In this document: piece after piece, positions 3,141 to 49,062 of the stretch
Layout: each line of letters opens with the position of its first letter
How positions within the stretch are numbered: the stretch's first letter is position 1
Source: a virus
DNA length: 49,335 nt
Strand: one strand, 5' to 3'
Virus record (IMG/VR): IMGVR_UViG_3300033146_002530
Span: 1-49,335 of that record
Notes under the pieces: generated by a model
What the model saw: the letters and a program-made list of their open reading frames with translations, nothing else
Told to the model about the DNA's origin: nothing
Database searches by the model: none
Position numbers and translations under genes: made by a program

Positions 3141-3159
3141 AAAATACAATAAAAATCTT

Positions 3160-3260
3160 CAACTTCTAAATGTAGAACATTTTTGGTGGATAAGCCATAC
3201 CTTAATAAATTAAGTTATATGAAACTCCATTACGAGGAAATTCGCCTTTATCGAATACTT
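3160..3260 (+). ncRNA. Candidate structured leader RNA upstream of terminase
   Basis: The 181-base gap 3141-3321 is less A/T-uniform than other gaps here. It holds a chain of small hairpins: TTCTA-AATG-TAGAA (3164-3177), TGG-ATAAG-CCA within GGT...ACC (3185-3201), CTTAAT-AA-ATTAAG (3201-3214), CTC...GAG (3225-3236) and ATTCG-CCTTTAT-CGAAT (3240-3256). It does not fold as a tRNA by eye and I recognise no riboswitch. It may be an untranslated leader or a small RNA. Confidence 0.25.
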
Positions 3261-23109: not shown

Positions 23110-23787
23110 TTAGCAGTATAAATACCAATAAAATACTAATTGTCTTGTATCATCTTTTACAATACTAGGAAATGTGACTATGCTAAAAATATTAAATGGA
23201 CCTGTATGTCCGCCAGTAGTAGAATTTGATGTAAATAAACCAGCTTCACTTAAATTATAACCATTAGCATGATCAATTGATATTGTTGTAGTAACTTTTA
23301 ATATTAAATATTTATTATCATTTAAAGCATCTTGTTGAAAATCAATAGAATCAAGAGGATGCTTATAGTATTCACCACTTCTTAAATCAGCACAACTTGA
23401 ATCGGTTGAATGTAAAGGAATTTCATTTGATAATCCTGTTAATATATTTGTTGGTGTATTTGGATTTAAAGGATCTCCAATTGGTGTTCCTCCATTTCCA
23501 AGACCAAACCAAGAAATAAATTCATCTTCTTCTTGTATAATATTTGAGTTATTAATATTACAAAGTCTTGAAGCTATCCACTCTCTACCCATATAAAGAA
23601 CTAAATTACTTTTACCAACCTTTTGTTTAGTCCCATTCTTATCAATAGAATAAATTTCAACATATCCTTCTGGTTTTCTTGCTTTACTATTCATACTATT
23701 CACTGCATCTTTTATACACGAGTCACCATAATTTTCATCTATATTGACAACTATAGTTTCTGGTTCTTTAATCTTTTTATCATTCAT
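23110..23787 (-). CDS. Phage structural protein, tail-appendage type
   Basis: 225 residues with AAAGGAG before ATG 23787. The N-terminal 40 residues are acidic. The core has VGKSNLVLYMGREWIASRLC, then FISWFGLGNGGTPIGDPLNP and a C-terminal beta region with NGYNLSEAGLFTS and VTFPSIVKDDTRQLVFYW. The G-x-G-x-GGTP turn and the LSEAGLF motif recur in small phage tail proteins that accompany fibres. It precedes the sheath gene with a 130-base gap. Exact role unknown. Confidence 0.45.
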   Translation of the reverse strand: MNDKKIKEPETIVVNIDENYGDSCIKDAVNSMNSKARKPEGYVEIYSIDKNGTKQKVGKSNLVLYMGREWIASRLCNINNSNIIQEEDEFISWFGLGNGGTPIGDPLNPNTPTNILTGLSNEIPLHSTDSSCADLRSGEYYKHPLDSIDFQQDALNDNKYLILKVTTTISIDHANGYNLSEAGLFTSNSTTGGHTGPFNIFSIVTFPSIVKDDTRQLVFYWYLYC

Positions 23788-25949: not shown

Positions 25950-27075
25950 CTATACAACTGTTAATGAGGCTTCACTCTCAGATTCTATTAAAGAAGTACC
26001 AGTTAATATTTCACTTATACCTGTACTTAATATAGTTGCAAATATAAATGTACTTAAATTAGATGATCCATTAATTCCTTCATTATTTCCAATAGTTAAA
26101 TTAGAATCACAATTAGTTGTTGAATTACTAGATCCTTTATATATACCAATAGTAATTGATTGTCCGTCAAGTTCATCAATTGAAGAATGTTCTTCAATAA
26201 TTCCATCAAATACTAATTCACTATTAGAAATTGGTTGATCATATGTTGTTTCAGATATTATATCAGTACTTAAATAAATTTTAACATTGTTAATACCTTT
26301 ATCAGTATCAGTTCCACTAGCATGATAATTATAAAATATTATTTCATCTAAATTAATTCCATTACCAATAGCACATATAACTCTTTGATTAGTAGTTTGG
26401 TTATTTGCCATCCAATTTTCAACAGTACCTGTTAAAGGACTTATATAATAAAATATTCTCCATGGTGCATATGGATCTGGTTCAAGAGTTGATGTAGCAT
26501 AGGCATCATAGTCAACACCAGGAACTCCAATATCAATAATATTTCCAAAATTAGCAAATCTAACTCCCATTAATGCCATATTAGTTGAATCACCATGATT
26601 ATTTTCTATGTCAATTATAACACTTCTAGTATTATATAATGTATTAACAACTGTTAAATTAGATATTAATTGAGAACTTATATTAATAGCTCCATTTAAG
26701 ATTTCTAATTCACCTGTAAATAATGTAGTAGAATAAGCTTGTGTAGTATTAATTACAATACTACTTAATATTTGAATATCTCCAGTTAATAATAAACCAT
26801 CAAAATTAGTTGACATATTAATATTACTTGATAATTCTTCAATGATACCAATAATTAATTCACTATTATATACTACTGTTTCAATTGAAGAAGTACTTGT
26901 TATAGTTTCAGAATAAGCACCAATATTTAAACTACCATTAATTTGAGTAGTTAATGATATTGTAGAAGTGAAATCTCTATCTATTCCAAATGATAGTCCG
27001 CTAGAAGATACTAAACTATTAATATTTGTACTAGAATTTAATATTTCAAAAGCTCCTAAATTTAAAGTTGAAGCA
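25950..27075 (-). repeat. Protein-coding 22-residue repeat block in the gp7-like gene
   Basis: About six repeats in 26640-27075 and two in 25950-26120 follow the L-x-x-G-x-x-E-x-L-x-S-x pattern (for instance LIIGIIEELSSNINMSTNF). Between them lies the inserted discoidin-like domain (about 26180-26630). The repeats are diverged at DNA level but clearly the same family as those at 29890-46740. Confidence 0.75.
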
Positions 27076-29234
27076 TATATATTGGTATTTGATATAATAG
27101 AACCAGATAACCATTCAAATATTCTACCATCAGTTGTAACATCTAAATTTGTAAGAGAATCATAAAAATTACCAGTATCGTATCCTGATGGATATTTACC
27201 AACTGATGATGTAATAATAGAATTACCAACATATGATATTACAATATAAAAACTATCATTGGTATTAATAGTATCATTAAAATTTTGATTAATATGTATA
27301 TTAGATGGATCATCACTAATAGGAATAATATCCCCATCAGGAACAACACCATGTTCAATATCTATACTATCAAACCAAGTTTCTTCGTAACCTGAATCAA
27401 AATAAGCACCAGTATCCCAATTTCTATCAAAATAATAAGTGCGACCAACTTTATCTATTATTGTTTGTTCTATTCGTGTAGAAAAGGAATCACAAATTTT
27501 TCCATCAGGATGATTTTTAATTAATTCTAATAAACATTTTTGTAAATATGGAAGTATATCATAAAATCCTCCACTATCATAACTAAAATTTAAATATTCA
27601 GGAGGCATAGGAATATCATATTTTCTTAATGTGTCATATAACCATTCTATATTACCACATAATATAGGTGGAAATGGATCTTTTTCTGGTGGTATGGTTG
27701 GAATAATTGGAGGATCATCAAAAAATCTACCAGTATCCCATCTCCATGTAGTTTCTAAAATATGATTTATATCAGGAGGGATTTGATTTAGAATTTCCTC
27801 ACAATAACCACCTGGTGGTCTTATACTATCATGATAATTGGTTTCAATTTGAGTTAATAACCATTCATCAAATAAAATAGATTCAGTTAGTGGATTTTTA
27901 ATAGAGTATGCTGTATCCATATAAGCTAATCTAGCTCTATATGGTTTAAAAAAATTTATAATATCCTTTAATTCATCTCTAAAAGTAAGACCTAACATTG
28001 TTGTAACTAAACTTGGAGATTTTGAATCAATGTTTAATCTAATCCAATTATCTAAAGATCCTAATAAATAAGTAATTAAGTATTTTTCATCTCCAATAGA
28101 AATCCATGAATCTATAATTGCTTTAAAATCTGGATTTATTGATTGTAATAAAGGTTCAGCCGCATTGATTGAATTTAAAAAGTTTTCTGACATTGGTCTT
28201 GACCAAGTGTTAATTAATTCATTTAATTTGGCATCTCTATCAAATCTAGATGTTGGTTTGGATATTAAATTTTCATATTCAGTAGATAAACTAGATATAT
28301 TATATGGTATTGGTGGATCTCCATAATAAGTAACAGTTCCATTATAACAACCATAGTTAGTAAAAGAAGTAGAAATTCCAGTTCCAAACATTTTTTCAAA
28401 AGTATATACTGTACCCACATATAAATGAAATAATGGTAGAACCATACCTAAATTTCTAACTTGAACATTATAAGGCAATTCTAAACCTAAAACTGATCTA
28501 TCATACTGATCTTGTATAATTCTAAACATAATTGTTAATGATAATAATACATTATATAAAGAAAATATAGAACTTAAAGAAAAATAAGGAGATTTAGAAG
28601 GAAGATTAATTTTATTTGATAATAATAATGATTCTATTTGATCTTTAGTTTGAAACCAATGTGGATCATCTGCAATTAATTTATTAAAAGCAACATCATT
28701 ATCTAATAAAACTGTACTACCAGTAGCAGCAAGCCTTACAGATTCTCCTCTAAAAATAAGATTTCCATATTGATCTTTTTGTAACCAATATTCAATTAAA
28801 TCAGTATCAGAAAAACCATAATAATCCAATACATCAACTAAAGTTTCTGGTGTACCTTTTTTCTTGTAAAAATTTACTAAATCCAGAAAAAAGTTGGCTT
28901 TTGATGTTAGTGGAACTAACTCTAATCCGATAGGAAATCCAAAACTTCTAAATAATTCACTAAGATGTTGGTTAGGAAGTTGATGAACATCAGATGAAAA
29001 TTTTTGGGTTGTTGATACAGTTTTTAAAGAAGAATACCAATCAATCAACATTTCTCTTAATCTTTGATAATCAGCAGTATTAAATGATGGCTGATCTAAA
29101 ACATTTTCAAAATATGTTTTAACAATTTCTTTTTCTGATGTCGCTAAAATGGTAGTCAATTCACTAAGATTAGGATCAATAGTCCCATCTTTTAGATACT
29201 CCATTATTCTCCAAAGATCATCAATTGTAAACAC
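25950..29234 (-). CDS. Baseplate/tail protein: gp7/P2 gpI-like N-terminus, fibre-type repeats and discoidin-like domain at C-terminus
   Basis: About 1094 residues. GTG 29234 is chosen because AAAGGAG lies 7 bases before it; a TTG at 29240 would be only 1 base from it. The N-terminal ~150 residues carry FYKKKGTPETLVDVLDYYGF, the signature of tail protein I/gp7-type baseplate proteins that carry fibres. The middle has four copies of a [WY]-D-[TS]-G-x-[FY]-[FY]-D motif (about residues 498-690). The C-terminal third contains about eight copies of the 22-residue repeat found in the two giant neighbours, interrupted by a ~150-residue discoidin/galactose-binding-like domain (ICAIGNGINLDEIIFYNYHA). 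It likely docks the giant fibres to the baseplate. Confidence 0.6.
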   Translation of the reverse strand: MFTIDDLWRIMEYLKDGTIDPNLSELTTILATSEKEIVKTYFENVLDQPSFNTADYQRLREMLIDWYSSLKTVSTTQKFSSDVHQLPNQHLSELFRSFGFPIGLELVPLTSKANFFLDLVNFYKKKGTPETLVDVLDYYGFSDTDLIEYWLQKDQYGNLIFRGESVRLAATGSTVLLDNDVAFNKLIADDPHWFQTKDQIESLLLSNKINLPSKSPYFSLSSIFSLYNVLLSLTIMFRIIQDQYDRSVLGLELPYNVQVRNLGMVLPLFHLYVGTVYTFEKMFGTGISTSFTNYGCYNGTVTYYGDPPIPYNISSLSTEYENLISKPTSRFDRDAKLNELINTWSRPMSENFLNSINAAEPLLQSINPDFKAIIDSWISIGDEKYLITYLLGSLDNWIRLNIDSKSPSLVTTMLGLTFRDELKDIINFFKPYRARLAYMDTAYSIKNPLTESILFDEWLLTQIETNYHDSIRPPGGYCEEILNQIPPDINHILETTWRWDTGRFFDDPPIIPTIPPEKDPFPPILCGNIEWLYDTLRKYDIPMPPEYLNFSYDSGGFYDILPYLQKCLLELIKNHPDGKICDSFSTRIEQTIIDKVGRTYYFDRNWDTGAYFDSGYEETWFDSIDIEHGVVPDGDIIPISDDPSNIHINQNFNDTINTNDSFYIVISYVGNSIITSSVGKYPSGYDTGNFYDSLTNLDVTTDGRIFEWLSGSIISNTNIYASTLNLGAFEILNSSTNINSLVSSSGLSFGIDRDFTSTISLTTQINGSLNIGAYSETITSTSSIETVVYNSELIIGIIEELSSNINMSTNFDGLLLTGDIQILSSIVINTTQAYSTTLFTGELEILNGAINISSQLISNLTVVNTLYNTRSVIIDIENNHGDSTNMALMGVRFANFGNIIDIGVPGVDYDAYATSTLEPDPYAPWRIFYYISPLTGTVENWMANNQTTNQRVICAIGNGINLDEIIFYNYHASGTDTDKGINNVKIYLSTDIISETTYDQPISNSELVFDGIIEEHSSIDELDGQSITIGIYKGSSNSTTNCDSNLTIGNNEGINGSSNLSTFIFATILSTGISEILTGTSLIESESEASLTVV

Positions 29235-29271
29235 TATCAAACTCCTTTAAATTGGTTATCTCTAATTTATA

Positions 29272-32200
29272 TTATGTTCCTTTATTTGATACATGTTCAA
29301 AGATATTTTGAGTCAAGTATGTCTCATAGCATGTTTCTAATGAATTAACTCTTGTTGTAAAGATAGCTGTGTTATCATATCTAGAATAATTTCCAGATAG
29401 TTTCATTTCTAAGTATATATAAATCATTTTAGCTAATGAAGTATCCAAATTATTATATTCAATACCAACTAATGTAGCATTTTCAGGTTCTAATCTAAAT
29501 ATTAATAATCTATCCAGCATAATTATATCATGTGATTGAATATTATATAAATTTATATTATATTCTTCTGGATCATCTCCATCTGCTATATAATAATGAG
29601 CTGTTTCTGGGTCTAGCATCATTCTTGTTCTAATTGCATCTGGCCATGATTGTTTATCTAATATTTCTCTATATAAATATCTATAGCTTGTTTTATCATA
29701 TTCATCATTAAATAACAACTCAATGAATGATTGCTCATATATATGTTCTCTTGATGGAAAATTTATTTGATGTTTATTTAATGATTTATGATTAACTACA
29801 AAATGATCATACCAATACTGTAAATCAGCAGTAATTCTTCTTATATATCTATCAATAGTATTAATTTCTAAATTAGTATTAGTTTTAACTATAGAAATAC
29901 ATTCAATAGAAGATTCTAAATACTCATTAATAACACCCAATGTTAATTCAGTAGCAACAACAATTTGAGTTAATGAGCTGGCAGATAATATTTCACTTTC
30001 ACCTAAGTATATTGGATCTATATTACATTCAGTAGAAATAATAACTGTACTTGTTAATGAATTATCAAGATGTCCCATAGTTATTGAAACATCTGGAATA
30101 ATAGATTGAACTATAATAGATGATTGATGTTCAATTTCTAACCATAATGTATCTGAATTAGATTCAACCCATGGATTTGTAGTTGCACTTAATATTTCTA
30201 CTAATCCAATAATTAAATCAGACGTTGTAACACTTTGAACAATATTTAATGAACTTGATAATGGATTAGAAATACCTAAATTTAAAAATGTATCAACTCT
30301 TGATTGTGCATTAATAGAACTTGATAATTCTTCAACAATTCCCCAACAATCCAAGTCATAAATATTAATACTAAATATAGCTGAACCTGATAATTGTTCT
30401 GCATAACCAATATCTAAAACACAACTTGCATTAGTAACAGATGTTATACTTCCTAATAAAGGTTCATATTGACCAACAATATATTCAGCATTAGCAGATG
30501 AACCTGTAATAATACTTGCAGATAAAGATTCTTGTGAACCAATTACTATATCAGATACAGGTATATTTAAGGTATTTACTACAGATGCATCAAGAGCAAT
30601 ACTTATATATAGTTCATCATTAAGACCTATTAAAGAGGTAATTATTCCGGTTGAGGATAGTATTTCTATAGTTCCTACTAATATATGTCCACTTGAAGAT
30701 GATTCTATAGTACTTGTAGCACTAAGTTCTGTATCAAGACCAACTACCATATTAGCTTCTGAAATTGAAATTGAAAATATAGTACTTGATAATAATTCAG
30801 CAACCCCAATAATTACTTGTAAAGGTTTATATGTTGTTTGAGTATTAACTGTAGCTGATAATTCTTCTGTAACACCTTTCATTAAATATGGAGTTATAAA
30901 TAATGATTGGGCATGTACTTGTCCAAATAATGCTGCATTATCACCAATAAATAAATCAGCATCATTAACTAAACTTTGAATATGAATATCTGAAAAAATT
31001 CCATATTCTACTCCAGTATAAATAAAACCATCAACAAATGATTCAATAAATATATCCGCAGTTAGTATTTCTAATGTACCTAATACTAATTCAGCATCAG
31101 TAACAATTGTATCTATAGTTGATGTGTGTTCAAGAGATGTAACATAACCAATTGTTAAATCAACATTTATATTTGATTGAATTAATGAAGAGCTTTTAAT
31201 TGCATATTCTACACCTAATATTGATTCTACATTTGATTCTATTGCATAATCTACATTTAAATCAATAGCACCAATTATAAGACCATCATTATTGACAACT
31301 GTCTGAATATAAATAGTACCACTTTCAAAATGTTCTGCAACGCCTAATGTTAGAGTAGCCCATACTTCAGTTTCACTATTTGATTCACCATAGTAATTTG
31401 AAATTAAGAAGAATGAATTTGAAACATTAGATATTGAATTAATATTAGATTCTAATACTGTAATAATACCAATTGTTACATTAGTGCTAATAATTGAATT
31501 AGCTATAGAAATACCTGATAAACCTGTTTCGGCTCCTAATGCTAAATGAGAATTTGATATATTTGATTGTATATTAATAGAACTTGAAACTCCTGTAACT
31601 ACATTCACTGTTGATACATTAGAAATAATATTAACAGTTGAAGAAATATCAGAAGCAGCTCCTACTCCTAAATTAACATTTTCAATATTAGATACAATAT
31701 CTATAGTTGAATTTAATTCTTCAATAACACCTATTGTTAATTCAAAATTTGTTAATATTGAAGTAATGTTTGTTGAAGCAGTATAAAAACCAAATTTTAA
31801 TTTAGATTCACTAACTATACTATTAGTAAATATTGTAGAATCTAACCACTGCATATTTATAAATGTTAAACTATTAACATTTGTATTAATAGATAATGTA
31901 GATTCTAATATTTCATCAATACCTATAATTAAATCACATATAGTATATGATACAGCTAAAGTAATACTGCTAATTAATTCAACAATTCCTGGAACTACAT
32001 TACCAATAACTGAAGATTTAATTATACAAGTTGATGATAATTGCATTGAAGTTTCTAATAAACTATCATATACATTTGAAACTATATTTATATCACCTGA
32101 ACTCCAGATAACAGGAGAAATTAAATATGCATTATTAACATTTGACTGAATTGGAAATGATACTGATAATAATTCTGTTAAACCAATTATTAACTCTATA

Positions 32201-35200
32201 TCATTTACTAAAGTTAAAATATTAGATGCAGATGTTAATGTCTCATTTATTCCAATATACATAATATCAGAAGTTGAATCAGTTGATACAAGAGAAGAAC
32301 CTTCTAGAATACTTATATCTCCAGTAACTAATATAACATTATTAACATATGATGTTGATGTTGATGTTGATGATAATTCTTCTGGATCTCCAGTTACAAG
32401 TGGTAATGATACAATATTAGTTATAGCATTAACAGTACTTGATAAATAAGATGGTTTTTCTATAGTTCCATTTAATACACTTATTATATTAATAGTAGAA
32501 GTAAGAGATTCAGTTATTCCGTCCATTTCAATATCAGATATATTGGATTGACATAAAATAATACTTGATAGACTTTCAGAATCACCAACTATAATATTTG
32601 AATCATTTAATATAGATGAAAAATTAATATCACTAGTAATAATAATTTCATTAACAAATAATTCATTCTCAGTTGCTTCAACTACAGATTGATTTTCTAT
32701 AATACCTGATAACAATTCTAATACACCAGGTATTTGTAAAAAACCAGTTGTTTCTGTTTTAGATATAATAGTAGATGATAATTGTTCTATATGTCCTAAT
32801 ATTAATTCAGAATCAGTTATTGAAATAATAAATACAGAACTTGCTACTAATTCAACAATTCCAAGAAGTAGAATAGACCCATCAGCTTCAGTACTAGGAA
32901 CACATGAAGTACATTGTAATTGTTCTAACGTACCTAAATCTAAATCAGTATTATATACATTACTAACTATTAAAGGAGATGCATTCAATATATCAGCTAC
33001 ACCAAGTTCAAGCTCACCACCTACAACTGAATTAGAAAAATTAGTTGATGCTAGTAATTCAGCTACACCAACAGTAAATATATTATTAATATTACTTACT
33101 ATAAATGATGTACCTGTTAAAATTTCTGTTTCTGTTTTCATTAAAGCGTTGCTTACAACAGATTGAGCTAATATAGTTGAACTTAATTGTTCTAATATCC
33201 CTGGTACATATAACCAAGTACCATTTACATTTGTTTCTATATTAATGGTAGAAGAAATAGGTTCAGGTTGACCAATATACATTTCAATTGTATTTTCAAC
33301 ATTAGATTGAACTAATGGGGTGGCATTTAATAATTCATCACCTCCAATATTTAATACATCATCTATTGTTGGTTGAATATGAATAGAAGCCGATAACGGT
33401 TCACCAATACCAAGAGTTAATTCAGTAGGTGGAAAGCTTACAGTTGAAGCTATTGTTGAAGCTAATAACTCTTCAACTCCTAATACTATGGCACTATCTG
33501 ATACAACACTTTGTATTAAAGATGTACTAGAAAGATATTCAATAATACCTAATATTAAATTTGCATCTGTAATTGAAATAGTAAAATTTGTTGATGATAA
33601 TATTTCAATAACACCTAGTACTAAACTACTATCATTTACATCACTATTAATTAATTTAGTTGATGATAATGGAGTATCAATACCTAATGTTATATTTGCA
33701 TCAGATAATGTTTGTATAATACTTGTATGAGATAATTCCTCAATAATTCCTATTGTTAATATAGCATCAACAATTGAAATTGAAAAATTTGTAGTTGCTA
33801 ATATTTCAACTTTACCAATTAATAATAATGCATCAATATTAGAAATAATATTAATTGTTGATGATAATTCAGTTTCAACACCAAGCTCTAAATCAGCATT
33901 AACATTTGATTGAATTAGGTATGTATGTGATAATTCTTCTTCTGTTCCAATAGTTAAATCACCTGGTAAATTAGATTGAGATATAGATGTAGCAGCAACA
34001 ACCTCTAAAATTCCTAAACCTAATGTAGCAGTAATAATAGATTGAATATATTGATTAGAAGTTAACACCTCTATAATACCAAGATCAAGGCTTGGTAAAC
34101 TAATATTAGATGTAATAGTTACAGGAGTTGATAGTTGTTCCTCATTTCCTAAATAAACATCAGTTAATATTGCAGTTGTTATATTAAGAGTTGCATCTAA
34201 TTGTTCTGCAACACCAAGTGTTAAAAATGTATCAACACTACTAGTAACCACACATCCAGTTACTAATGGTTCATATGCACCTATTATTAGATCAAGAGTA
34301 ACATTAGATGTTGTAATAACAGTAGAAGCTAATATCTCAACAACACCAATTACTAATGGAGATGCTATAACAACAATTGATTGAACGAACCAATTTTTAA
34401 AAGAATCTTTCCATATTACATCATTAGTACTTACAAATTCAACACCTGATGTTGGATCAACTCTTGTATGAGATAATGATTCAATTATACCACCAATTGT
34501 TAATTCAGAGGATACATTACTACTAACTATATTTTGAGGATCTCCACCAGCACCTGCTGATGCTGCTGCCAATATCTCTGAACCACCCATTGTTAAATCA
34601 GTACTACTTCCAACAATACTTTGAATTATTTGAGTTACTTCTAATATTTCAATCTTTCCTGTTGTTAATAATGCATCACATTCACTACTTCCTAAAAAGA
34701 AATAAGTTGATTCTAATGGCTCAATTAAACCCATTGTTAATTCAGTAATAGATACATTAGTTTGAATAGAAGAAGTATATTCTAATACTTCAATTATACC
34801 AAGAATTAATTCTCCTGATACAAAACTTACTATAATTGATGCACCTGAAATTGATTCATCAGATCCTTGAATAATAAATCCGCTTAATGATGAATTAATA
34901 TTTATAGTAGAACTTAATACTTCATTAACTCCCAATGTTAATTCTGAATCTGTTATAGATATACTAAATGATGAAGAAGCCAATATTTCTATTATACCAG
35001 TAGTTAAAATAGCATCAACAGAAGTATTGGCTGAATTAATAGTTGATAATAAAACTTCATTAGCTCCTAATGTTAATTCTGAATTAACACTACAAGTAAT
35101 AATTTTTGTAGCAGATAATTCTTCTGAAGTACCAGTTGATAGAACAGATACAACATTTGAATTAATTAATGTAGATGAATCTAAAATTTCTGATCCACCA

Positions 35201-37110: not shown

Positions 37111-37140
37111 AAATATTATTTCCTTTTATTTTAAATAATA

Positions 37141-40100
37141 TTATGTTGTCTTAAATATTCCACCTTTTGATGATTGAGTTGCAGAGTGACTTAATGCTAC
37201 AATTCCACCTAGATGTGCATCTCCTCCACCAACATTTGTTGTAACATCAATACCTGTAATTGGAGTAGTACTTTCTAATATTTCATCTATACCAGCATAA
37301 ATTTGTCCAATAGTAAATGAAGTTACAATTCTTGTTGCTGACATTACTTCTATTAAACCTAAGATTAATTCACCAGCAACTACACCAGTTGAGATAATAG
37401 TTGAAGCAAGTAATTCATCATCACCTGTACTTAATAATGCTTCTCCATATGATATAGCATTAATAGTAGATGATAATAATTCTCCACCACCAAGAGTTAA
37501 ATCAGCATCAGCAACAGAATTTGAAATAGATGTTGATGATAATATCTCTGTAAGACCTTTAATCAAATCTGCATTTTCAACAACTGAAGTAATAGTTGAT
37601 GTGCTGGTAATTAATTCAGTAAGACCTAATATTAAATCAGGTGTATGAATTTGAGACCAAATCATTCTAAAAGCAGAAACAATTTCAGAAACACCAGTAT
37701 CTAATGAAATTGCATTTGCAACTGATTGTCCAACAATAACATTTATAGTTGTTGATGAAGCATTTTCCATCATTTCAACTTCTCTTAAACCAATTTCATT
37801 GTCTCCACCATCCTGCGCAGAAGTCATATAAATTCTATAGAATCTATAACTCGATCCATTAATAAATTCATATGTTGATGTTCCATCTGATGCCCATGTT
37901 TCTCCAGTATAAGTAGAAAGAGTAGTCCAATCAACACCATTATTAGATCCTTCAAATGTAAAATCATCAGGTCCTCTTAATTGGTATTGAGTAATACTAA
38001 TTTTTTCAATTTGTTTTTCATTTCCTGTACCAAAATCATATCTAATCCAATGAGGAAAATTATTATTACTATTATCAATTGTAGTATTCCAAAAACTATT
38101 ATTATCATCATCAAAAGCATAACTAGCTTGATATCCAGTACTATAATCACTACTAGAAGCTGCTATACCACCAGTACATTGGTCAATTGTATATCCAGAC
38201 CCTGTTGTTTCCCAACAAGTATGAGCTAATGATTCTAAAGCTCCAGGAATTTCAAGATCACCAATAACATTAGAAACAGCTAATTCAGAACCTGCAGTTA
38301 CATATTGCATATCTGTAGAAGTATCAAAATTAGAAGTCCAAAGAGCAGAACCTTTTGTTAATCTAAAATTATCAAGATATCCATTTGCTGATGTAGATGT
38401 AGATGCTCCATAACCAATTGTTGGATCATTAGGTATATTAGGAAATGATGTATTAGCTAACATGTCATCTCCCCATGATATACTTTGAGAAATACCATCA
38501 ACATAAATAGAAAAATTATTTAATCCTGTACCATATCTAACAAATGCTATATGAGTCCAAGTATTAGCAGTAACAGAATTAACAGAAGTTCTTGCCTCTG
38601 TTATTTTAGAACCTCCAACTCTTGAAGTAAATACAATAGATCCTTCTGATAGATTTGATCCTTCTACCCACATATCAACATCATCAATACCAACGCCTCT
38701 TTGTTCATATATTGTATGATAAGAATTTGCTAAATCAAAATATACCCATACATCAAATGTAAAATTACTGGTTCCAAGATTAAAATCTTCATGATCTGGT
38801 ATAGTAAGTTTATCTACTGTTCCACTAAAATATAAACTTGAAGTTCCATATTTTTTCTGGACAGTACTAATATCAACTCCAGTATTTGTAATAGTATGAG
38901 TACCATTTTCATCTTCTATTACATCTTCACCATCAATAAATAAATTACCTGATTCTCCTCCACCAGAACTAGGTGAAGTATGAACTAATGGTTCAATAAT
39001 TCCTATAGTTAATATAGCATCAACTGCAACAACACTGACTGATGAAGTTCCTAATATTTCAGTAATACCAGTTGCTATTGAACCATCTGAAGCAGTAGTT
39101 AAATTAATAGTTGATGATAAATCTTCATCTGCTCCCATTGTAATTAAAGAAGTAGTTTCTGAGTCAGCTAAATAAGTATTAATTGTTTTACCAGGATAAT
39201 CAAGATCAGTTGCAGTATTAAAATCAGAAGACCAAATAGCAGATCCTTTAGTTATTCTAATGTTATCAAAATAACCATTAAAACCAATAGCATATGTATT
39301 ATAATTAGCACCTATAAGCAATGGAGCAGTTGTATTTTCAACAGTTGTTGCTACTGTTATTGAATCAAATTCTGTACCATTTGAATATAATGTCCATACA
39401 TTACCTTCTCTAACAAATGCAATATGATACCATGTATCTATGGCTATTGGTAACTGACCCCAATCACTTATAACCCATGAACTTCCATCACCAACATCAA
39501 TTCTTAATTTATTTTGATATAGTTGCATTAACCAACCATTATATGCAGTATTATCAGATGATTCAATAACTCTATGTTGTCCACTATCATTTATATGATC
39601 ATACATCCAAAAGTCAATAGTAAAATCTCCATTTTCCATTTGAAAATCTGTATGATTTGCAATTTCTAAAGCATCACCATCTCCATCAAATACAATACTT
39701 GAATTACCTTGAGCTGATTCATTTGTACTAATTGCTACATTACCATGGTTAGTTATAGTATGAGTACCAGTTTCATCTTCTATTATAAATTCACCATCAA
39801 TAAATAAATCACCAGGAGTACCAATAATATTAGTAGTAAGTGTATGTGATAAATCTTCTATACTACCACCAATAGTTAAATTAGCAGAAACATTAGAAAC
39901 AATTCCATCTGCTGATCCAAGTATTTCACTAACACCTAAATCTAATAATGAAATAGATGTTGTTGATATTGGACCAATTGTACTTGATATCATTTCCATA
40001 ACACCCATAGTTAATTCAGGTGTAACCAATGATTGAACATCAGTTGATGTAATAGTATTAGAAATTTGGTCTGAATCTTGTTGAAATGCTAAATAAATAA

Positions 40101-43100
40101 AATCAAATGAAGCATCATTAACTTCTCCATGAGATGTTTTAATTTGGAATCCAGTGCTTGTAAATTCTATATCTAGGGTTGTTGTTTCTACAGAACTAAT
40201 ATTCGCTGCTAAACTTAAACTATTAGGAGCTGTTGAATCACGATCATTATCAAATATCCACCAACTTGCTGCTTGATTATAAGATTTAATCATTACATAA
40301 CCAGGTTCAAATCCACAATCAACTATTGGACCAGTAGCTGAACCATTACCAGCATATTGACCAAAATCACTTAATCCAGGAATATCATCAAATATATATG
40401 CAACATAAGTATTACCTAAAACATTTGTACTATTAGAATTACCAAGAGTGATATTAGCACTAGTAGGTTCCGTATCACCCCAAGGAGAGTAAGAAGTTGT
40501 TTCACTACTATTTTCTTCTAATTTCATATATTTAGTTGCACCTAACTCGGCACTATATACTAACCAACTAGAATTACCATCTATACGTTTTGTCATAAAG
40601 AATTTAGGTGTATTACCAAGAGAATGTTTAATAGTTCTACCTGCAACACCATTACCTGTATAAGTAATAATACTTAAACCAGAATCAGTAGAATATTTTT
40701 CAACCTGTGATAAACCTGAACCATTATCATTATTTCCTGTTTGATCAGCTTTCCAACACCAAGCTACATTAGATATTCCAGATCTATTTGATTCATTATC
40801 AGATCCAAGAGTAAAACCATCATTATCAAATGATTGTAATGTCGTACTTTTTACTACTTCTGCTAATGTATGATTTGTTCTTAAAAATCGACCACTTCCA
40901 CGAACAGAATCAAAAACATTATGATTATCATCATAATCTCTTGGTTTAATCCAAACTAGATCAGGTTTAAAACCTACACCAGTAATTTCATGATCAGCAG
41001 AACCATCACCATCGAAAATAACTTGATTTATACTTATATCTAATCCAGTAGTATAACTTGTATGAGCTAATGGTTCTGCCACACCTAATGATGGTGTAAG
41101 AGCATCTGCATCAATTGTAATATTATCAGTAGCACTTAATTCTTCACTAACACCAATAGTTAACCAAGAAATTGTATTAGAAACAATTATACATGTAACA
41201 GTCATTGGTTCATCAACACCAATAGTTAAGCTAGCATCTGTTGTTGAAGTTGTTGTAACAGTAGTTCCAAGTAATTCACTAACACCAAGTATAATATTAG
41301 TATTATCAACATTAGATTGAATTAATACTGTTGAACCTGATACAACTACTGGACCACCTAATTCAACATCAGCATCAACTTCAGTTGAAGGCCCACTTGT
41401 AGCTGATAAATCTTCAACATGACCAATAGTAAGAATAGCTTCAGTTGTTGAAGTAAATGTTGTGCTAACACTTGCTGTTTCTATAATACCAAATCCTAAT
41501 AAAGCATCAGTTGAAATAACATTAGAACATGTGGCACTTAATACTTCTCCAATACCAAGGGTTAAAGTAGCATATGTTGTTGATTGAGATGCATTAGCAG
41601 TACCTATATACTCTGTATCACCTAAGTCTAATGGAGCAATAATATTAGAAATAAAAGTTGATGTAGCACTTAATGGTTCATCAACACCAAATGATAAGAT
41701 AGAACTAATATTTGAATTTGCTGTAATAGATGATGATAATACCTCAACACCACCAATAATTAATTCGGCAGTTGTTACTGAAACACTAAATGTTGTAGAT
41801 GCTAATACTTCTGTTATACCTGTACTTAATAATGATGCTGATGCAGTAACAACAACATCTTTAGTAGCACTTAATGGAGTAGCAGCTCCAAGACTTAATA
41901 AACTTGAAGTTACTGATACTGCAAATGTTTCTGGAGTTGACGAAGTTTCATATAATAATTCTTCGTCAGATGTTATATCAAAATCAGAACTCCAAAGAGA
42001 AGTTCCTTTTGTTATTCTAAAATTATCTATATAACCAGTTAGTTCAGCTCCGAAATTTGTACTTGCTCCAATAACCATTTGTCCAGCTACTTTATTATGT
42101 GAACCATTATTTCCTGTTCCACTACCTTTTACATAACCATTAATATATCTTGAAATAGTTTCACCATTTTTAGTATATGCATAATGATTCCAGGTGTTAT
42201 TTGCAGGTAAATCACTGCCAGTTAAAGCAGGAAAAATAATATTTGCTGAACCTATATAATCAATATAAAATGTACCATCAACTTTACTATAAAAAGAAAC
42301 AGGAGTATCAGTTTGTGACATAACTCTATCAGTTGATGAAGTATCTGATACATATAACCAATAATCAATTGTCCAATCATCTGATCCAAAATTCCAATCA
42401 CTTGAATCTGGAATTGTTAAATAGTCACCGTTACCATCAAAATAAATAGAACTAGCACTATTACCTTGTAGACAATATTGTCCAGTATTAACAGCAACAT
42501 CACCAACTGGTGTAATAGTATGAACAGCATTTTCATCTTGTATTACACTTTCACCATCAATAAATAAATCACCAGTTTCTAATGATTGACCAGGTAAATC
42601 ATCATCACCAATAGTATGAGCTAATGATTCAGTAAGTCCTATAGTTAATATAGCGTCAGCAACAGAATTAGATATAGATGTTGATGATAATATTTCTGTA
42701 AGACCTGTTGTTAATAAACCAGAGATAGATGTCCAACATACACATTCATGACTTAATTCTTCTACAATTCCAATAGTTACATCAGAAATATCAACTGTAG
42801 AAATAACATATTCTTCTTCTGGGATATAATATTGTAAATCATTACTAACATTAAAATTAGAAGTCCAAAGAGCAGTACCTTTTGTTATTCTAATGTTATC
42901 TAAATTTCCTTTTAAATAATCTGAAGATCTTCTTAATCCAATTTTTAATCCTTCTGTAGTTCCAAATTGAACATTATGACTAGATGCAGTTGAAGTTCCT
43001 TGTTCTGTTCCATCAATAAATAAATGCATAAATCCTGATTCTCTAATACAGGCTACATGAACCCATTGATTTGTTACTATAGCATTAGAATTAACATTTA

Positions 43101-46100
43101 CTTCATTTCCAGATGCTCCATCACGTAATCTAAATTCTATTGCATTGGCTGTTTGTACTACTATTCTTAAATATTCAGTATTATTATCTACTCCATTAGC
43201 ATTACATATAATGCCATCATTAACGCCTGAACTTGTATGATATATCCAGAAGTCAATAGTAAAATCATCAGTTCCAAAATTCCAATCTGTTGAACTTGGT
43301 ACTGTTAAATAATCACCAGTTCCATCAAAGTAAATAGAACTATTTCCATATTTTTTTATTGATGTATTTATTGATGTATCACCATTAATATTAATTGTAT
43401 GATTTCCATTCTCATCTTCTATTATTGTTTCACCATCAATAAATAAATCACCATATGTTCCTGAACTTGAAGATAGAGTATGTGATAAATCTTCTGTAGT
43501 ACCAAAACTTAATGTTGCAGTTGCAGTACTTGTAGCTGAGTTTGATACTCCAAGAATTTCATCAACTCCTAAATCAACAAGACCAATAGATGATGTTACA
43601 GCATAAGGATCAAGAGGACCTGAAGTAAATTCAAATAATGTATGACTTAATTCTTCAATTCCACCACCCATTGTTAATTCACCAGTTACAGAAGTAGAAA
43701 GAGCATTATCAACATCTGCTAATATTTCAGTAACACCTAAATCAATTAAAGCATCTGAATTTGTATTATAATTAATAGTAGCAGATAAATCTTCTGTAGA
43801 ACCTAAGATTAAAGCAGCAATTACTGTTGATGTAATACCAGTAGTTGATGACATATATTCTGAAGTACCAAGTGTTAGTTGAGGATTAGATACATCAGAT
43901 ACAGCAGAAGCTGATACATTTAATATTTCATTTTCACCAGTTAATAATGCAGGTACAACTGCAAATGATACTGGATTAATAGTTGATGATAATGGTTCAC
44001 TAACACCAAGATCAATTGTATTACATAAAACTGTTGATACTATATTTGCTCCAGTAGTACATGCTAAAATTTCTGAACCACCAATACCCATAACTGCAGC
44101 ATCAGTAACAGAAGCATTAGCAATAGTTGATGCTAGTAATTCAGTAACACCTAATGTTAATATTGGAGTAGTTGAAGATTGTACATCAGTTGATATTATA
44201 TTTACAGAAGTAGGAACTGGATAATCTAAATCATTAGTAGTGCTAAAATTAGAAGACCAAATAGCTGTACCTTTTGTAAATCTAATATTATCTAGATAAC
44301 CTCTCCAGAAATTAGCTGCTGCATGATTTCCAATTGATCCTATTAACATTGGAGCTTCTATGCCACTTATATCAACAGCTGGATAATTATAACTATTAAT
44401 AACATCACCATCAACATATACATAGAACATTCCATTTTTTCTTACTAAAGCAACATGATACCAGGTATTTAAAGATAGATCAATATTACTAGCTACATTA
44501 AATTGTTCGGCACCATGTGTTGCGCAGTAATGACTAAAACGATTATAATTACCATTATAAACAAAATAATGTATACTTGGATATCCAGACCCTTGATTAA
44601 AAATTATATGATCTTGTGTATCAACAGTTAAATATATCCATGAATCAAAAGTAAAATCAGCTGTTCCAAAATCCCAATCTGTACTGTCTGGTATACTTAA
44701 ATAATCACCAGAACCATCAAAATAAATACTTGAATCACCATATTTCTTTTGAGATGTATTTATAGCAACATCTCCAACTGAGGTAATAGTATGAGTACCG
44801 TTTTCATCTTCTATTACATCTTCACCATCAATAAATAAATTGCCTGATTCACCGCCGCCACCAAGTATACTAAAACTTGTATGAGCTAAATCTTCATCAA
44901 CACCAAATACAAGAGTAACAGCAGATGCATTACTAATTATATTTGAAGTTCCTGTTATTGTAACTGGACCACCAAGGGTTAATTCAGAATTACTAACAAC
45001 ACTAACAATTCCATCTGTTGAGGCAGTAGGTTCTATAATACCAAGTATAATAGAAGCATTAGAAGAAGTAGGAATAGTACTAGTAGCACTTAATGCTTCA
45101 TCAGCTCCAAGAGAAGCATCAGCAATAACATTAGATTCAACAAATGTTTCTGGTATATCAGAACTCCATGTAAGAGCTTCCATCATTTCAATTTCACCAA
45201 CAACTGTACCATTATAACTACCATTAGATGCTGTAACATTTAATTTATAATGAGTATAAGAAACAGTACTGCTAAATGAAAAAGATCTTTTTTCTCCAGA
45301 ACCCCAAGAAGTTTCTCCAGTTACATTATCTAATATTGTCCAATCTCCATCTGAACCATCAGTTGAATTAGATGAACCTTGAAATGTCCAATCCATAGGA
45401 GCAACACCTGCATTTCCTGCAGAACCATATGCTCTAACTGTATATCCTTCTATTCTTTCACCAGAACTAAATTTAAATGAGATCCAAGATGGATTTCCAC
45501 AACCACCAGTATGCCACATTTTTGCATTATCCCATAAATCATCAAAAGCAGTTTGTGGTCCAAAGTTAGTCCAATCATCTGAATAAACACAAGGACTTGA
45601 AAATACATTTGTATTATATACTGGACTAGTACATAGATCAATATCAAATGTTAATGGACTACCTGGTATATCATCATCACCAATTGTATGAGCTAATATT
45701 TCTGAGTCACCAAGTATAAGATTAGGAATTCCAACTAATGATGTTGTATCTATAGTTGCTTCTAATATTTCTGTAATACCTAAATTTAAGAATGAACTAA
45801 CAACTGACTCAAAATTAATAGTTGAACTTAATGGGGTTTCTTCACCCATAGTTAATATACTATTTAACACTGTTGATACAATTGCTCCAGTTGAAGCAGT
45901 TGCTTCTTGAATACCAAGAGTAAGACCAGAATCAGATACAGGTATAGTAGTTGCAATAGTTGCAGAAAGATCTTCTGTATGTCCTAAATCCATATCAGAT
46001 ATTGCATAACTAACAATATTATTAGTGGCACTAAGATCTTCTGTAATACCTAATGTAAGAACTGCGGCTGATACAGTTGAAACAATAGGATCAGTAGAAC

Positions 46101-46836
46101 CTAATACTTCAGTAACACCAAGGTCAAGTAAAGAAACAACATTTGATTGAATAACAACACCAGTTGTACATGCAACTTCTTCTCCTAAAGTTAATACTTT
46201 AGTTGATTCAGAAACAACACAAGTAGCAGTAGCACTTAATGATTCAACAATACCCATTTGTAACCAAGCAATTGAAGTTGATGTATTAATTGAAGTTGAT
46301 GCAAGTAATTCACTAACACCAAGATCTAATAAACCATTAGTATTAGAATTAGCATTAATATTTGCAGTCATTAATTCTGAAGCACCAAGAGTTAATAACG
46401 GACCAGCGGTTACAGAAGTAGTTGTTATAGAAGAAGAAACAACTTCAACCACACCAAGACTTAATATTTGAGTTGTAGTAGATACACACGTTGATGTACT
46501 AGTACAATCAACAGCTACACCTAATTCAACCCAACCTGTTGTTGCTGATACTATATTATTAGTAGCAGTTAATATTTCAACTACACCAAGACTTAATACT
46601 GCATCTGTGCTTGAAGTAATTGAATTTGATGATGCAAGTAGTTCAGCTACACCAGCAGAAATTAAAGCTACTGAATTACTAACAACATTATTAGTAGCAG
46701 ATAATACTTCATTGCTACCTAATGTTAAACTAGCGCCAGCTTCTGTATCTCCACCAACATTTGATTGAATCATATAGCTGTCAAATGTATTATTCCATTT
46801 AACATCGGTTCTATTTATAAAAATAACATCAGCCAT
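37141..46836 (-). CDS. Giant modular receptor-binding fibre protein, 3231 aa, with LamG, discoidin and marine-phage domains inserted in repeats
   Basis: GGAGATAAATA precedes ATG 46836. About 61 copies of the 22-residue repeat form the backbone. Inserted domains, in order (approximate residues): discoidin/F5-8C-like 395-572; LamG 662-870, 1127-1335 and 1422-1632; a domain with GFKPDLVWIKPRDYDDNHNV 1932-2262 (common in marine phage fibres, I think now DUF7483); LamG 2340-2552 and 2627-2842; discoidin-like 2874-3034. Each LamG is preceded by a conserved lead (GDLFIDGE...ED-E-N-G-x-HTI) and has D-F-T-x-D-x-W-I-Y and GYLDN-x-R-x-TKG motifs. LamG and discoidin folds usually bind glycans, so the protein is most likely a host-surface-binding fibre. 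Confidence 0.7.
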   Translation of the reverse strand: MADVIFINRTDVKWNNTFDSYMIQSNVGGDTEAGASLTLGSNEVLSATNNVVSNSVALISAGVAELLASSNSITSSTDAVLSLGVVEILTATNNIVSATTGWVELGVAVDCTSTSTCVSTTTQILSLGVVEVVSSSITTTSVTAGPLLTLGASELMTANINANSNTNGLLDLGVSELLASTSINTSTSIAWLQMGIVESLSATATCVVSESTKVLTLGEEVACTTGVVIQSNVVSLLDLGVTEVLGSTDPIVSTVSAAVLTLGITEDLSATNNIVSYAISDMDLGHTEDLSATIATTIPVSDSGLTLGIQEATASTGAIVSTVLNSILTMGEETPLSSTINFESVVSSFLNLGITEILEATIDTTSLVGIPNLILGDSEILAHTIGDDDIPGSPLTFDIDLCTSPVYNTNVFSSPCVYSDDWTNFGPQTAFDDLWDNAKMWHTGGCGNPSWISFKFSSGERIEGYTVRAYGSAGNAGVAPMDWTFQGSSNSTDGSDGDWTILDNVTGETSWGSGEKRSFSFSSTVSYTHYKLNVTASNGSYNGTVVGEIEMMEALTWSSDIPETFVESNVIADASLGADEALSATSTIPTSSNASIILGIIEPTASTDGIVSVVSNSELTLGGPVTITGTSNIISNASAVTLVFGVDEDLAHTSFSILGGGGESGNLFIDGEDVIEDENGTHTITSVGDVAINTSQKKYGDSSIYFDGSGDYLSIPDSTDWDFGTADFTFDSWIYLTVDTQDHIIFNQGSGYPSIHYFVYNGNYNRFSHYCATHGAEQFNVASNIDLSLNTWYHVALVRKNGMFYVYVDGDVINSYNYPAVDISGIEAPMLIGSIGNHAAANFWRGYLDNIRFTKGTAIWSSNFSTTNDLDYPVPTSVNIISTDVQSSTTPILTLGVTELLASTIANASVTDAAVMGIGGSEILACTTGANIVSTVLCNTIDLGVSEPLSSTINPVSFAVVPALLTGENEILNVSASAVSDVSNPQLTLGTSEYMSSTTGITSTVIAALILGSTEDLSATINYNTNSDALIDLGVTEILADVDNALSTSVTGELTMGGGIEELSHTLFEFTSGPLDPYAVTSSIGLVDLGVDEILGVSNSATSTATATLSFGTTEDLSHTLSSSSGTYGDLFIDGETIIEDENGNHTININGDTSINTSIKKYGNSSIYFDGTGDYLTVPSSTDWNFGTDDFTIDFWIYHTSSGVNDGIICNANGVDNNTEYLRIVVQTANAIEFRLRDGASGNEVNVNSNAIVTNQWVHVACIRESGFMHLFIDGTEQGTSTASSHNVQFGTTEGLKIGLRRSSDYLKGNLDNIRITKGTALWTSNFNVSNDLQYYIPEEEYVISTVDISDVTIGIVEELSHECVCWTSISGLLTTGLTEILSSTSISNSVADAILTIGLTESLAHTIGDDDLPGQSLETGDLFIDGESVIQDENAVHTITPVGDVAVNTGQYCLQGNSASSIYFDGNGDYLTIPDSSDWNFGSDDWTIDYWLYVSDTSSTDRVMSQTDTPVSFYSKVDGTFYIDYIGSANIIFPALTGSDLPANNTWNHYAYTKNGETISRYINGYVKGSGTGNNGSHNKVAGQMVIGASTNFGAELTGYIDNFRITKGTSLWSSDFDITSDEELLYETSSTPETFAVSVTSSLLSLGAATPLSATKDVVVTASASLLSTGITEVLASTTFSVSVTTAELIIGGVEVLSSSITANSNISSILSFGVDEPLSATSTFISNIIAPLDLGDTEYIGTANASQSTTYATLTLGIGEVLSATCSNVISTDALLGFGIIETASVSTTFTSTTEAILTIGHVEDLSATSGPSTEVDADVELGGPVVVSGSTVLIQSNVDNTNIILGVSELLGTTVTTTSTTDASLTIGVDEPMTVTCIIVSNTISWLTIGVSEELSATDNITIDADALTPSLGVAEPLAHTSYTTGLDISINQVIFDGDGSADHEITGVGFKPDLVWIKPRDYDDNHNVFDSVRGSGRFLRTNHTLAEVVKSTTLQSFDNDGFTLGSDNESNRSGISNVAWCWKADQTGNNDNGSGLSQVEKYSTDSGLSIITYTGNGVAGRTIKHSLGNTPKFFMTKRIDGNSSWLVYSAELGATKYMKLEENSSETTSYSPWGDTEPTSANITLGNSNSTNVLGNTYVAYIFDDIPGLSDFGQYAGNGSATGPIVDCGFEPGYVMIKSYNQAASWWIFDNDRDSTAPNSLSLAANISSVETTTLDIEFTSTGFQIKTSHGEVNDASFDFIYLAFQQDSDQISNTITSTDVQSLVTPELTMGVMEMISSTIGPISTTSISLLDLGVSEILGSADGIVSNVSANLTIGGSIEDLSHTLTTNIIGTPGDLFIDGEFIIEDETGTHTITNHGNVAISTNESAQGNSSIVFDGDGDALEIANHTDFQMENGDFTIDFWMYDHINDSGQHRVIESSDNTAYNGWLMQLYQNKLRIDVGDGSSWVISDWGQLPIAIDTWYHIAFVREGNVWTLYSNGTEFDSITVATTVENTTAPLLIGANYNTYAIGFNGYFDNIRITKGSAIWSSDFNTATDLDYPGKTINTYLADSETTSLITMGADEDLSSTINLTTASDGSIATGITEILGTSSVSVVAVDAILTIGIIEPLVHTSPSSGGGESGNLFIDGEDVIEDENGTHTITNTGVDISTVQKKYGTSSLYFSGTVDKLTIPDHEDFNLGTSNFTFDVWVYFDLANSYHTIYEQRGVGIDDVDMWVEGSNLSEGSIVFTSRVGGSKITEARTSVNSVTANTWTHIAFVRYGTGLNNFSIYVDGISQSISWGDDMLANTSFPNIPNDPTIGYGASTSTSANGYLDNFRLTKGSALWTSNFDTSTDMQYVTAGSELAVSNVIGDLEIPGALESLAHTCWETTGSGYTIDQCTGGIAASSSDYSTGYQASYAFDDDNNSFWNTTIDNSNNNFPHWIRYDFGTGNEKQIEKISITQYQLRGPDDFTFEGSNNGVDWTTLSTYTGETWASDGTSTYEFINGSSYRFYRIYMTSAQDGGDNEIGLREVEMMENASSTTINVIVGQSVANAISLDTGVSEIVSAFRMIWSQIHTPDLILGLTELITSTSTITSVVENADLIKGLTEILSSTSISNSVADADLTLGGGELLSSTINAISYGEALLSTGDDELLASTIISTGVVAGELILGLIEVMSATRIVTSFTIGQIYAGIDEILESTTPITGIDVTTNVGGGDAHLGGIVALSHSATQSSKGGIFKTT
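37160..46740 (-). repeat. ~61 units of the 22-residue repeat, interrupted by eight large domains
   Basis: Units have the same consensus as in the 2612-aa protein. Two are nearly identical over 54 bases (42653-42706 and 37505-37558, four mismatches), both encoding TEILSSTSISNSVADA, a sign of recent duplication or gene conversion. Every large insertion falls after the residues L-[ASV]-H-T. Confidence 0.85.
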
Positions 46837-48267: not shown

Positions 48268-49062
48268 TTATATTAAACTAAGTAAATGTTTTTCAAACTC
48301 TTCGAATACTTTAATACCTTTAGCAGCAGATGGTAAAACTTTATCTAAACTATTATCTTTTATTATTTGTTTACATCTATTAATAATAACTCTTTTTCTT
48401 TTATGTGCTAATTTTTGAGCTTCACTATTTTTCTTTCTTGCTTCTGGATCTTTAAAATATTTTTTTAGTCTATCACTGTTAGCTTTTCTATTCTCTGGTT
48501 TTGCTCTTGTTATATGTCCTTTAGCAATGTTAGCAGCATGTTCTTCTGGAAATGCTTCCATATATTCAAGTTGGGATTGTCTATATTTTTCTCTATTTTT
48601 TGGTAATCTTTTTCCTTCGGTTGCAAGTTTTTGATAAGACTTATGTTCTAATGGATGTTCTATAATATATTTTTTTATACTATTACTAAGCTTATCTCTT
48701 GATTGTTTTGAACTATTTCTTGGACTATCACCATCAGTTAAATTAGTAAGTACTCCACTTTTTAAATCTATTCTTCCATAATATTTGATTAAATATTTTT
48801 CAATTTTCAATGCTGTTTCATCATTATAATAAAATCCATAAATCTTATATTCTAAAGGTATATTTTTTTTATATAATCCTCTAATAATTTTTAATTTTAA
48901 ATTATTATTATTAGTATTTAAAGCTTCTAATAAATGATATTGTAATCTATAATTTTGACCTTTACCAATATAGAATGGAATTCTATTTTTTCTTAATATT
49001 CCATAGACGTAATGTTTATTTTTATTTATAGAAATTAATTTTTTTACTTCTTTTATTTTCAT
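48268..49062 (-). CDS. GIY-YIG homing endonuclease, free-standing
   Basis: 264 residues; AAAAGGAGAATTGT precedes ATG 49062. The N-terminal nuclease has HYVYGIL (residues 17-23) and FYIGKG (30-35) as GIY and YIG elements, R39 and the catalytic Glu in KIEKY (E88). The C-terminal half is basic with repeated S-x-x-x-R-x-K-L-S-type helices (RDKLSNSIKKYI and similar), the NUMOD-like DNA-binding modules of phage homing enzymes. Not inside an intron as far as I see; it sits between two structural genes and is framed by two near-identical terminators, as expected of a selfish insertion. Confidence 0.85.
   Translation of the reverse strand: MKIKEVKKLISINKNKHYVYGILRKNRIPFYIGKGQNYRLQYHLLEALNTNNNNLKLKIIRGLYKKNIPLEYKIYGFYYNDETALKIEKYLIKYYGRIDLKSGVLTNLTDGDSPRNSSKQSRDKLSNSIKKYIIEHPLEHKSYQKLATEGKRLPKNREKYRQSQLEYMEAFPEEHAANIAKGHITRAKPENRKANSDRLKKYFKDPEARKKNSEAQKLAHKRKRVIINRCKQIIKDNSLDKVLPSAAKGIKVFEEFEKHLLSLI

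Follow-up and report, generated by a model that had tools for sequence, protein, structure and literature searches.

Locus and genes

We analyzed a 49,335-base stretch of the IMG/VR virus record IMGVR_UViG_3300033146_002530 (positions 1 to 49,335; "the window" denotes this whole stretch), in which two giant genes, A and B, and a neighbouring gene for a gpI-like protein (gpI) share a tandemly repeated unit of 22 residues. The three open reading frames (ORFs) lie side by side on the minus strand, at 25950-29240 (1096 amino acids, aa), 29272-37110 (2612 aa, A) and 37141-46836 (3231 aa, B). For gpI, the true start is probably the ATG at 29204, which is common to the relatives and gives 1084 aa, rather than the TTG at 29240.

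25950..29204, minus strand: gpI-like tail/baseplate gene, 1084 aa from the ATG at 29204; N-terminal ~460 residues conserved and related to AR9 gp259
29272..37110, minus strand: gene A, predicted repeat rod plus C-terminal core domain; 2612 aa, 276.8 kDa, isoelectric point (pI) 4.05
37141..46836, minus strand: gene B, predicted repeat rod (~59 units) with seven inserted blocks; 3231 aa

Other genes of the window include those for a terminase, a contractile sheath and a gp6-like baseplate wedge protein, and the sheath is closest to those of the jumbo phages BpSp, phiR1-37, PBS1 and AR9. With a contractile tail read from the sheath gene, the window would represent a contractile jumbo-type phage. 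The same gene cluster occurs in the relatives L002, L003, L004, L005, L009, L010 and L012, and the repeat is also borne by a further contig, L021/L023; one of these relatives sits on a 207-kb contig. Related arrays are present in about eight IMG/VR contigs.

The repeat unit

The self-identity of A was maximal at a lag of 22 residues, reaching 18.5% where unrelated lags gave about 8-10%, and it peaked again at 44, 45 and 23. That of B was likewise maximal at lag 22 (12.3%), with a peak also at 23, and the lag-22 signal of gpI was weak. Units were then located with an iterated 22-column profile, refined over the window proteins and their relatives, which detected 90 units in A, 56 in B and 7 in gpI, against means of 1.15, 0.6 and 0.05 in shuffles of the same proteins. 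Dividing array length by 22.4 gave about 105 units for A and about 59 for B once the inserts were taken out. These figures bear out an earlier note on this DNA, which had counted about 103 and 61 copies and had placed about eight more in the neighbouring gpI-like protein.

29947..37008, minus strand: A repeat array, residues 35-2388; 90 units detected, ~105 by length
37237..46728, minus strand: B repeat array including inserts, residues 37-3200 (profile units)
26658..27065, minus strand: five detected units in the gpI C-terminal region, residues 726-861 (profile)
25953..26099, minus strand: last two gpI units, residues 1048-1096 (profile)

Over 580 units the consensus was L-x-[LI]-G-[IV]-x-E-x-L-[ST]-[SA]-[TS]-x-x-I-x-[ST]-x-[VI], with Gly-4 in 99%, Glu-7 in 82% and Leu-9 in 78%; successive units were spaced by 22 (65%), 23 (30%) or 24 residues. 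An Asp or Glu stood at positions 5-8, within one turn, in 94% of 808 units. Position 6 was acidic in 45% of the units without an acid at position 7 and in 13% of the others (p = 7e-16, from units that are not fully independent). The almost invariant Glu of the earlier note is therefore found, with its loss compensated at position 6. A as a whole is strongly acidic, with 299 acidic and 39 basic residues. The conserved acid is real and compensated, which is compatible with a structural or metal role without demonstrating one.

Relation to known repeats

Neither A nor gpI matched Pfam or PHROGs at E<=0.1 or NCBIfam at E<=1, and B matched these three collections only through its inserts, the rod itself giving none. 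Against PDB sequences, phmmer with A and with profile A4 gave nothing credible (best E 0.19, FANCI), and tblastn of A and gpI found no match in 50,697 phage records. Nor did our literature searches find a 22-residue repeat of this kind described. A degenerate DNA pattern for two consecutive units recovered, among viral contigs, the clade of the window, L021/L023 and two contigs without arrays. Among genome contigs it gave 14 single matches, none with an array, and we read these as chance. gpI had no match in the genome contigs, and therefore no prophage was found. The earlier note had not recognised the unit as a named repeat family, and these profile and database searches agree with it. We conclude that the repeat is genuine, seemingly not yet catalogued and seldom met in the collections we searched, and that it constitutes a new repeat family in these predicted phage fibres.

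Two known repeats were compared directly. The RTX Ca2+ beta-roll, with its nonapeptide GGxGxDxUx, was rejected: the 580-unit consensus has a conserved Gly at position 4 alone, and the period is 22. The other, of which the unit could be a divergent form, was the LSGTIAG/LAGT repeat, 20 residues long and common in phage tail proteins. Both consist of tandem units rich in Ser, Thr and Gly with alternating hydrophobics, both occur in phage proteins, and real examples of the LAGT repeat (L032-L037) have a similar composition and the look L-[SA]-G/S-T-x-x-x-[ST]-x-[VL]. However, the LAGT repeat has a period of 20 rather than 22-23 and lacks the invariant Glu. Profile comparison by hhalign gave 0.3% against 99.5% for the positive control, and hmmsearch scores lay within the range of decoys (reversed or shuffled), the positive control reaching E 3.8e-22. 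We consider such a derivation improbable.

The arrays descend as ordered sets. When the window was compared with L012, 49 of the 54 units that were reciprocal best matches kept their order, with 63% identity compared with 28% for all unit pairs. Since the units are so diverged (28% mean identity) and yet collinear between orthologues, the arrays are old and were inherited as wholes. Four phages have about 100-105 units in A; L004 has 79 and L010 about 33.

Inserted domains of gene B

The earlier note overlooked that the B array is interrupted by seven blocks, which hold five LamG domains, two F5/8 type C domains and one DUF7483.

45118..45654, minus strand: insert 1, residues 395-573, F5/8 type C-like (phrog_17517 at 429-555; second Pfam stretch)
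44161..44847, minus strand: insert 2, residues 664-892, LamG_3 (Pfam)
42781..43446, minus strand: insert 3, residues 1131-1352, LamG_3 (Pfam; best stretch 1171-1319)
41899..42582, minus strand: insert 4, residues 1419-1646, LamG_3 (Pfam)
40015..41028, minus strand: insert 5, residues 1937-2274, DUF7483 (E 5.9e-87)
39145..39879, minus strand: insert 6, residues 2320-2564, LamG_3 (Pfam)
37705..38946, minus strand: insert 7, residues 2631-3044, LamG_3 plus F5/8 type C at 2892-3018 (Pfam)

The inserts matched the phage baseplate and fibre protein families phrog_13163, phrog_1469, phrog_24898 and phrog_19943 (E 1e-91 to 1e-53). This likeness is limited to the lectin-like domains, whereas the 22-residue rod has no PHROGs counterpart. 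Within the close clade, the B rod measured 1377-1450 aa in three phages. Total B length spanned 2119 to 3231 because the lectin-like blocks interposed among the units differ between phages; in the orthologues, different domains were swapped at fixed junctions of collinear rods. This rod of constant length with swappable lectin-like inserts is the most interesting part of the locus. The inserts are probably glycan-binding parts, a function suggested by their domain types.

Units that precede an insert carry a mark of their own. His occupied position 11 in 14 of the 24 units preceding an insert of more than 78 residues and in 33 of 768 others (p = 1e-12, a value that overstates independence, owing in part to shared ancestry). 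In B these units read 'LSHT/LAHT' and have the look of a junction or landing-site signature. At the position of the window's 414-residue block, L002 has a unit with His-11 (unit 52) but no large insert, which suggests a scar or landing site. LamG, F5/8 type C and DUF7483 domains would, on this evidence, be plugged into one corner loop of B and exchanged between phages, leaving the rod unchanged.

Gene A, gpI and attachment

A ends in a conserved, non-repeat region, the A-core.

37009..37110, minus strand: N-terminal cap motif of A (MSDVIFKNSLDVIWHSTYDSYMVVS...), common to B and relatives
34378..34440, minus strand: internal copy of the cap motif in A (FVSTNDVIWKDSFKNWFVQS), following an 'ESLSHT' unit
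29275..29946, minus strand: C-terminal region with the alpha-helical A-core (helical from ~residue 2416), conserved, non-repeat

The internal cap motif makes A look like two joined rods and suggests that the gene may have arisen in this way. The A-core, of about 190 residues, is 66-83% identical among close relatives and was confidently predicted as alpha-helical over most of its length, with many blocks at a predicted local distance difference test score (pLDDT) of 80-94; matches in a fold search of the model containing it were dominated by the low-confidence repeats of that model. In L013, L015, L017, L018 and L019, which contain no repeats of the 22-residue kind, the A-core is a stand-alone gene directly upstream of gpI. 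A would thus be a rod fused onto an older protein, and the simplest reading is that a rod was joined to the N-terminus of a pre-existing tail or baseplate protein and that units grew separately on the C-terminus of gpI.

The earlier note had proposed attachment of the fibres through stacking of their repeats on those of the baseplate protein gpI. The gpI of the window, L003, L005 and L012 does bear the same unit. In relatives with the same fibre, however, gpI carries 0 (L004), 2 (L002), 12, 14 or 31 detected units, and both L004 and L002 have A. Because gpI repeats vary from 0 to 31 and A has its own conserved core, which in relatives is a neighbour of gpI without repeats, the proposal does not hold up well and we regard it as very unlikely. 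Instead, A is probably held at the tail end by its alpha-helical core, a putative tail- or baseplate-associated protein that exists free of the rod in relatives, and the extra units of gpI would be an optional outward extension. If A is anchored through its C-terminal core, its N-terminus points outward. This polarity would be unusual, because most phage fibres anchor by the N-terminus.

The virion role of A and B is itself predicted from the genes alone, which leaves some room for other secreted or intracellular giant proteins. Nevertheless, A and B adjoin gpI in relatives, A is fused to a gpI neighbour, and the genes lie within a tail region with sheath and gp6-like baseplate genes. Lectin-like inserts of the same families also occur in PHROGs tail and baseplate families. 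A role outside the virion is accordingly one to which we give hardly any weight, and we treat A and B as predicted fibres below.

The label 'gp7/gpI-like' itself has a weak footing, namely a match to Tail_P2_I (PF09684) in the L017 relative only, below the cut-off (E 0.037; 14.3 bits vs 20.6). The N-terminal family of gpI matched AR9 gp259, annotated as a virion structural protein (E 4.5e-8), and the family at 23110-23787 of the window, conserved beside gpI, matched AR9 gp258 (E 8.9e-15); reversed decoys in these searches did no better than 0.056. This neighbour family, found also in AR9/PBS1, marks a tail gene block common to distant jumbo phages. The likeness to the AR9/PBS1 tail thus covers gpI, its neighbour and the sheath, whereas the A-core profile had no match among the ORFs of the AR9 segment examined. 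For the curly fibres of AR9/PBS1-type jumbo phages, gene candidates have been put forward only tentatively, in BpSp (PMC4870245).

The C-terminus of gpI looks like a slot in which different adhesins can replace one another. In the closely similar contigs L014 (1901-4384) and L013 (2890-5151), gpI ends in an unrelated 44-residue tandem repeat (ALCFGG...DTTEIWNGSIWATT), kelch-like by eye. The middle of gpI (window 27250-27750) has in close relatives a motif [WYF]D-x-G-x-x-[YF]D, such as WDTGRFFD, YDSGGFYD and WDTGAYFD, in up to seven copies in L005. Between gpI and the sheath, L002 (25028-29582) and L005 (24205-28146) have an inserted minus-strand block, not seen in the window, whose products include one that looks like a radical-SAM protein (CSHGCVYCYAPS) and another that is P-loop-like (SEPPGAGKST). 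Elsewhere in the window, a plus-strand ORF at 5924-10210 (1428 aa) matched nothing in PHROGs and nothing in Pfam above the cut-off, and adjoining the fibre block, at 48268-49062, lies a GIY-YIG-like endonuclease domain (LEM-3 type, just under the cut-off).

Predicted fold and overall model

On balance, we lean somewhat towards a reading in which A and B are long, acidic beta-helix fibres for host contact, A anchored by its C-terminal core and B carrying swappable lectin-like inserts. The fold in this reading comes from an AlphaFold2 model of ten units as a single chain, with 22 paralogous or orthologous segments as input. The model was perfectly regular and all-beta, its strands falling at 13-19 and 1-3 of the unit, and VIA-align fitted it to the parallel beta-helices 1hg8, 3p4g and 8bke with Z of 13.2, 13.1 and 12.4 and root-mean-square deviations of 3.1-3.3 over 191-216 residues. 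The extra residue of 23-residue units was best placed at 19-21 and whole-domain inserts fell at 12-14, both at corners of this low-confidence model, and thus they fit a beta-helix. A parallel beta-helix with one rung per unit is the best structural guess, at low model confidence. In each rung, positions 13-19 and 1-3 would form strands and position 9 a bridge, with the chain turning corners at 4-8, 10-13 and 19-22; at 0.48 nm per rung, the rods would extend to near 50 nm for A (~105 rungs) and 29 nm for B (~60 rungs). Known parallel beta-helix proteins, including the depolymerase/tailspike 8bke, pectin lyases and the Marinomonas MpAFP RTX helix 3p4g, likewise have about 22 residues per rung. 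They differ in having no sequence relation to a unit that is here almost uniform and repeated 60-105 times; moreover, no enzyme domain was seen here, and an acid in one corner takes the place of the RTX GxGxD motif.

Several points weigh against this reading. The ten-unit model has a pLDDT of only 54.7 and a predicted template modelling score (pTM) of 0.46, and the repeat units fell below pLDDT 50 in the second model, the one containing the A-core. VIA Z values up to about 13 can, by the tool's own warning, reflect merely an arrangement common in repeats. Foldseek of the repeat model gave nothing below E 0.9 against PDB and no match at E<=0.001 against PDB and BFVD. L004 lacks a B gene. Trimers, furthermore, are the usual state of phage fibres, and the repeat was modelled as a single chain. 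What stands of the beta-solenoid or stacked-hairpin rod proposed earlier is therefore the solenoid as a best guess: the prediction returned a regular repeated fold rather than disorder, but not with confidence.

The monomeric beta-helix could thus be an artefact, with the unit instead forming a hairpin of two strands, or a spiral element, within an intertwined homotrimer, as in the adenovirus-type triple beta-spiral or T4-type fibres. The 7-7-1 long tail fibre is an example of a trimeric phage fibre (PMC12796354). The low confidence of the single-chain model also leaves room for this arrangement, but inserted domains and the extra residues of longer units both map to corners of the modelled solenoid. 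In addition, a period of 22 residues is typical of a beta-helix coil, whereas the triple beta-spiral repeat has roughly 15. We consider the homotrimer unlikely, if worth keeping in view, and prefer the beta-helix.

A bolder version of the preferred beta-helix model can be offered tentatively, as a possibility rather than an expectation: the unit would found an undescribed beta-solenoid family with an acid ladder along one corner, possibly bridged by divalent metal, the C-terminally anchored rods would serve as rulers or scaffolds of fixed rung number, and His-11 units would be landing sites at which glycan-binding domains enter, leave and pass between phages with rod length unaffected. If the preferred model is right, the few folds known from long phage fibres would gain a further repeat family, and protein engineers could take an interest in an acidic solenoid with one loop open to domain insertion. 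The rod would remain constant and receptor-binding domains would be side cassettes rather than a swapped tip, so that fibre length and binding repertoire would become testable directly from sequence in uncultivated jumbo-type phages.

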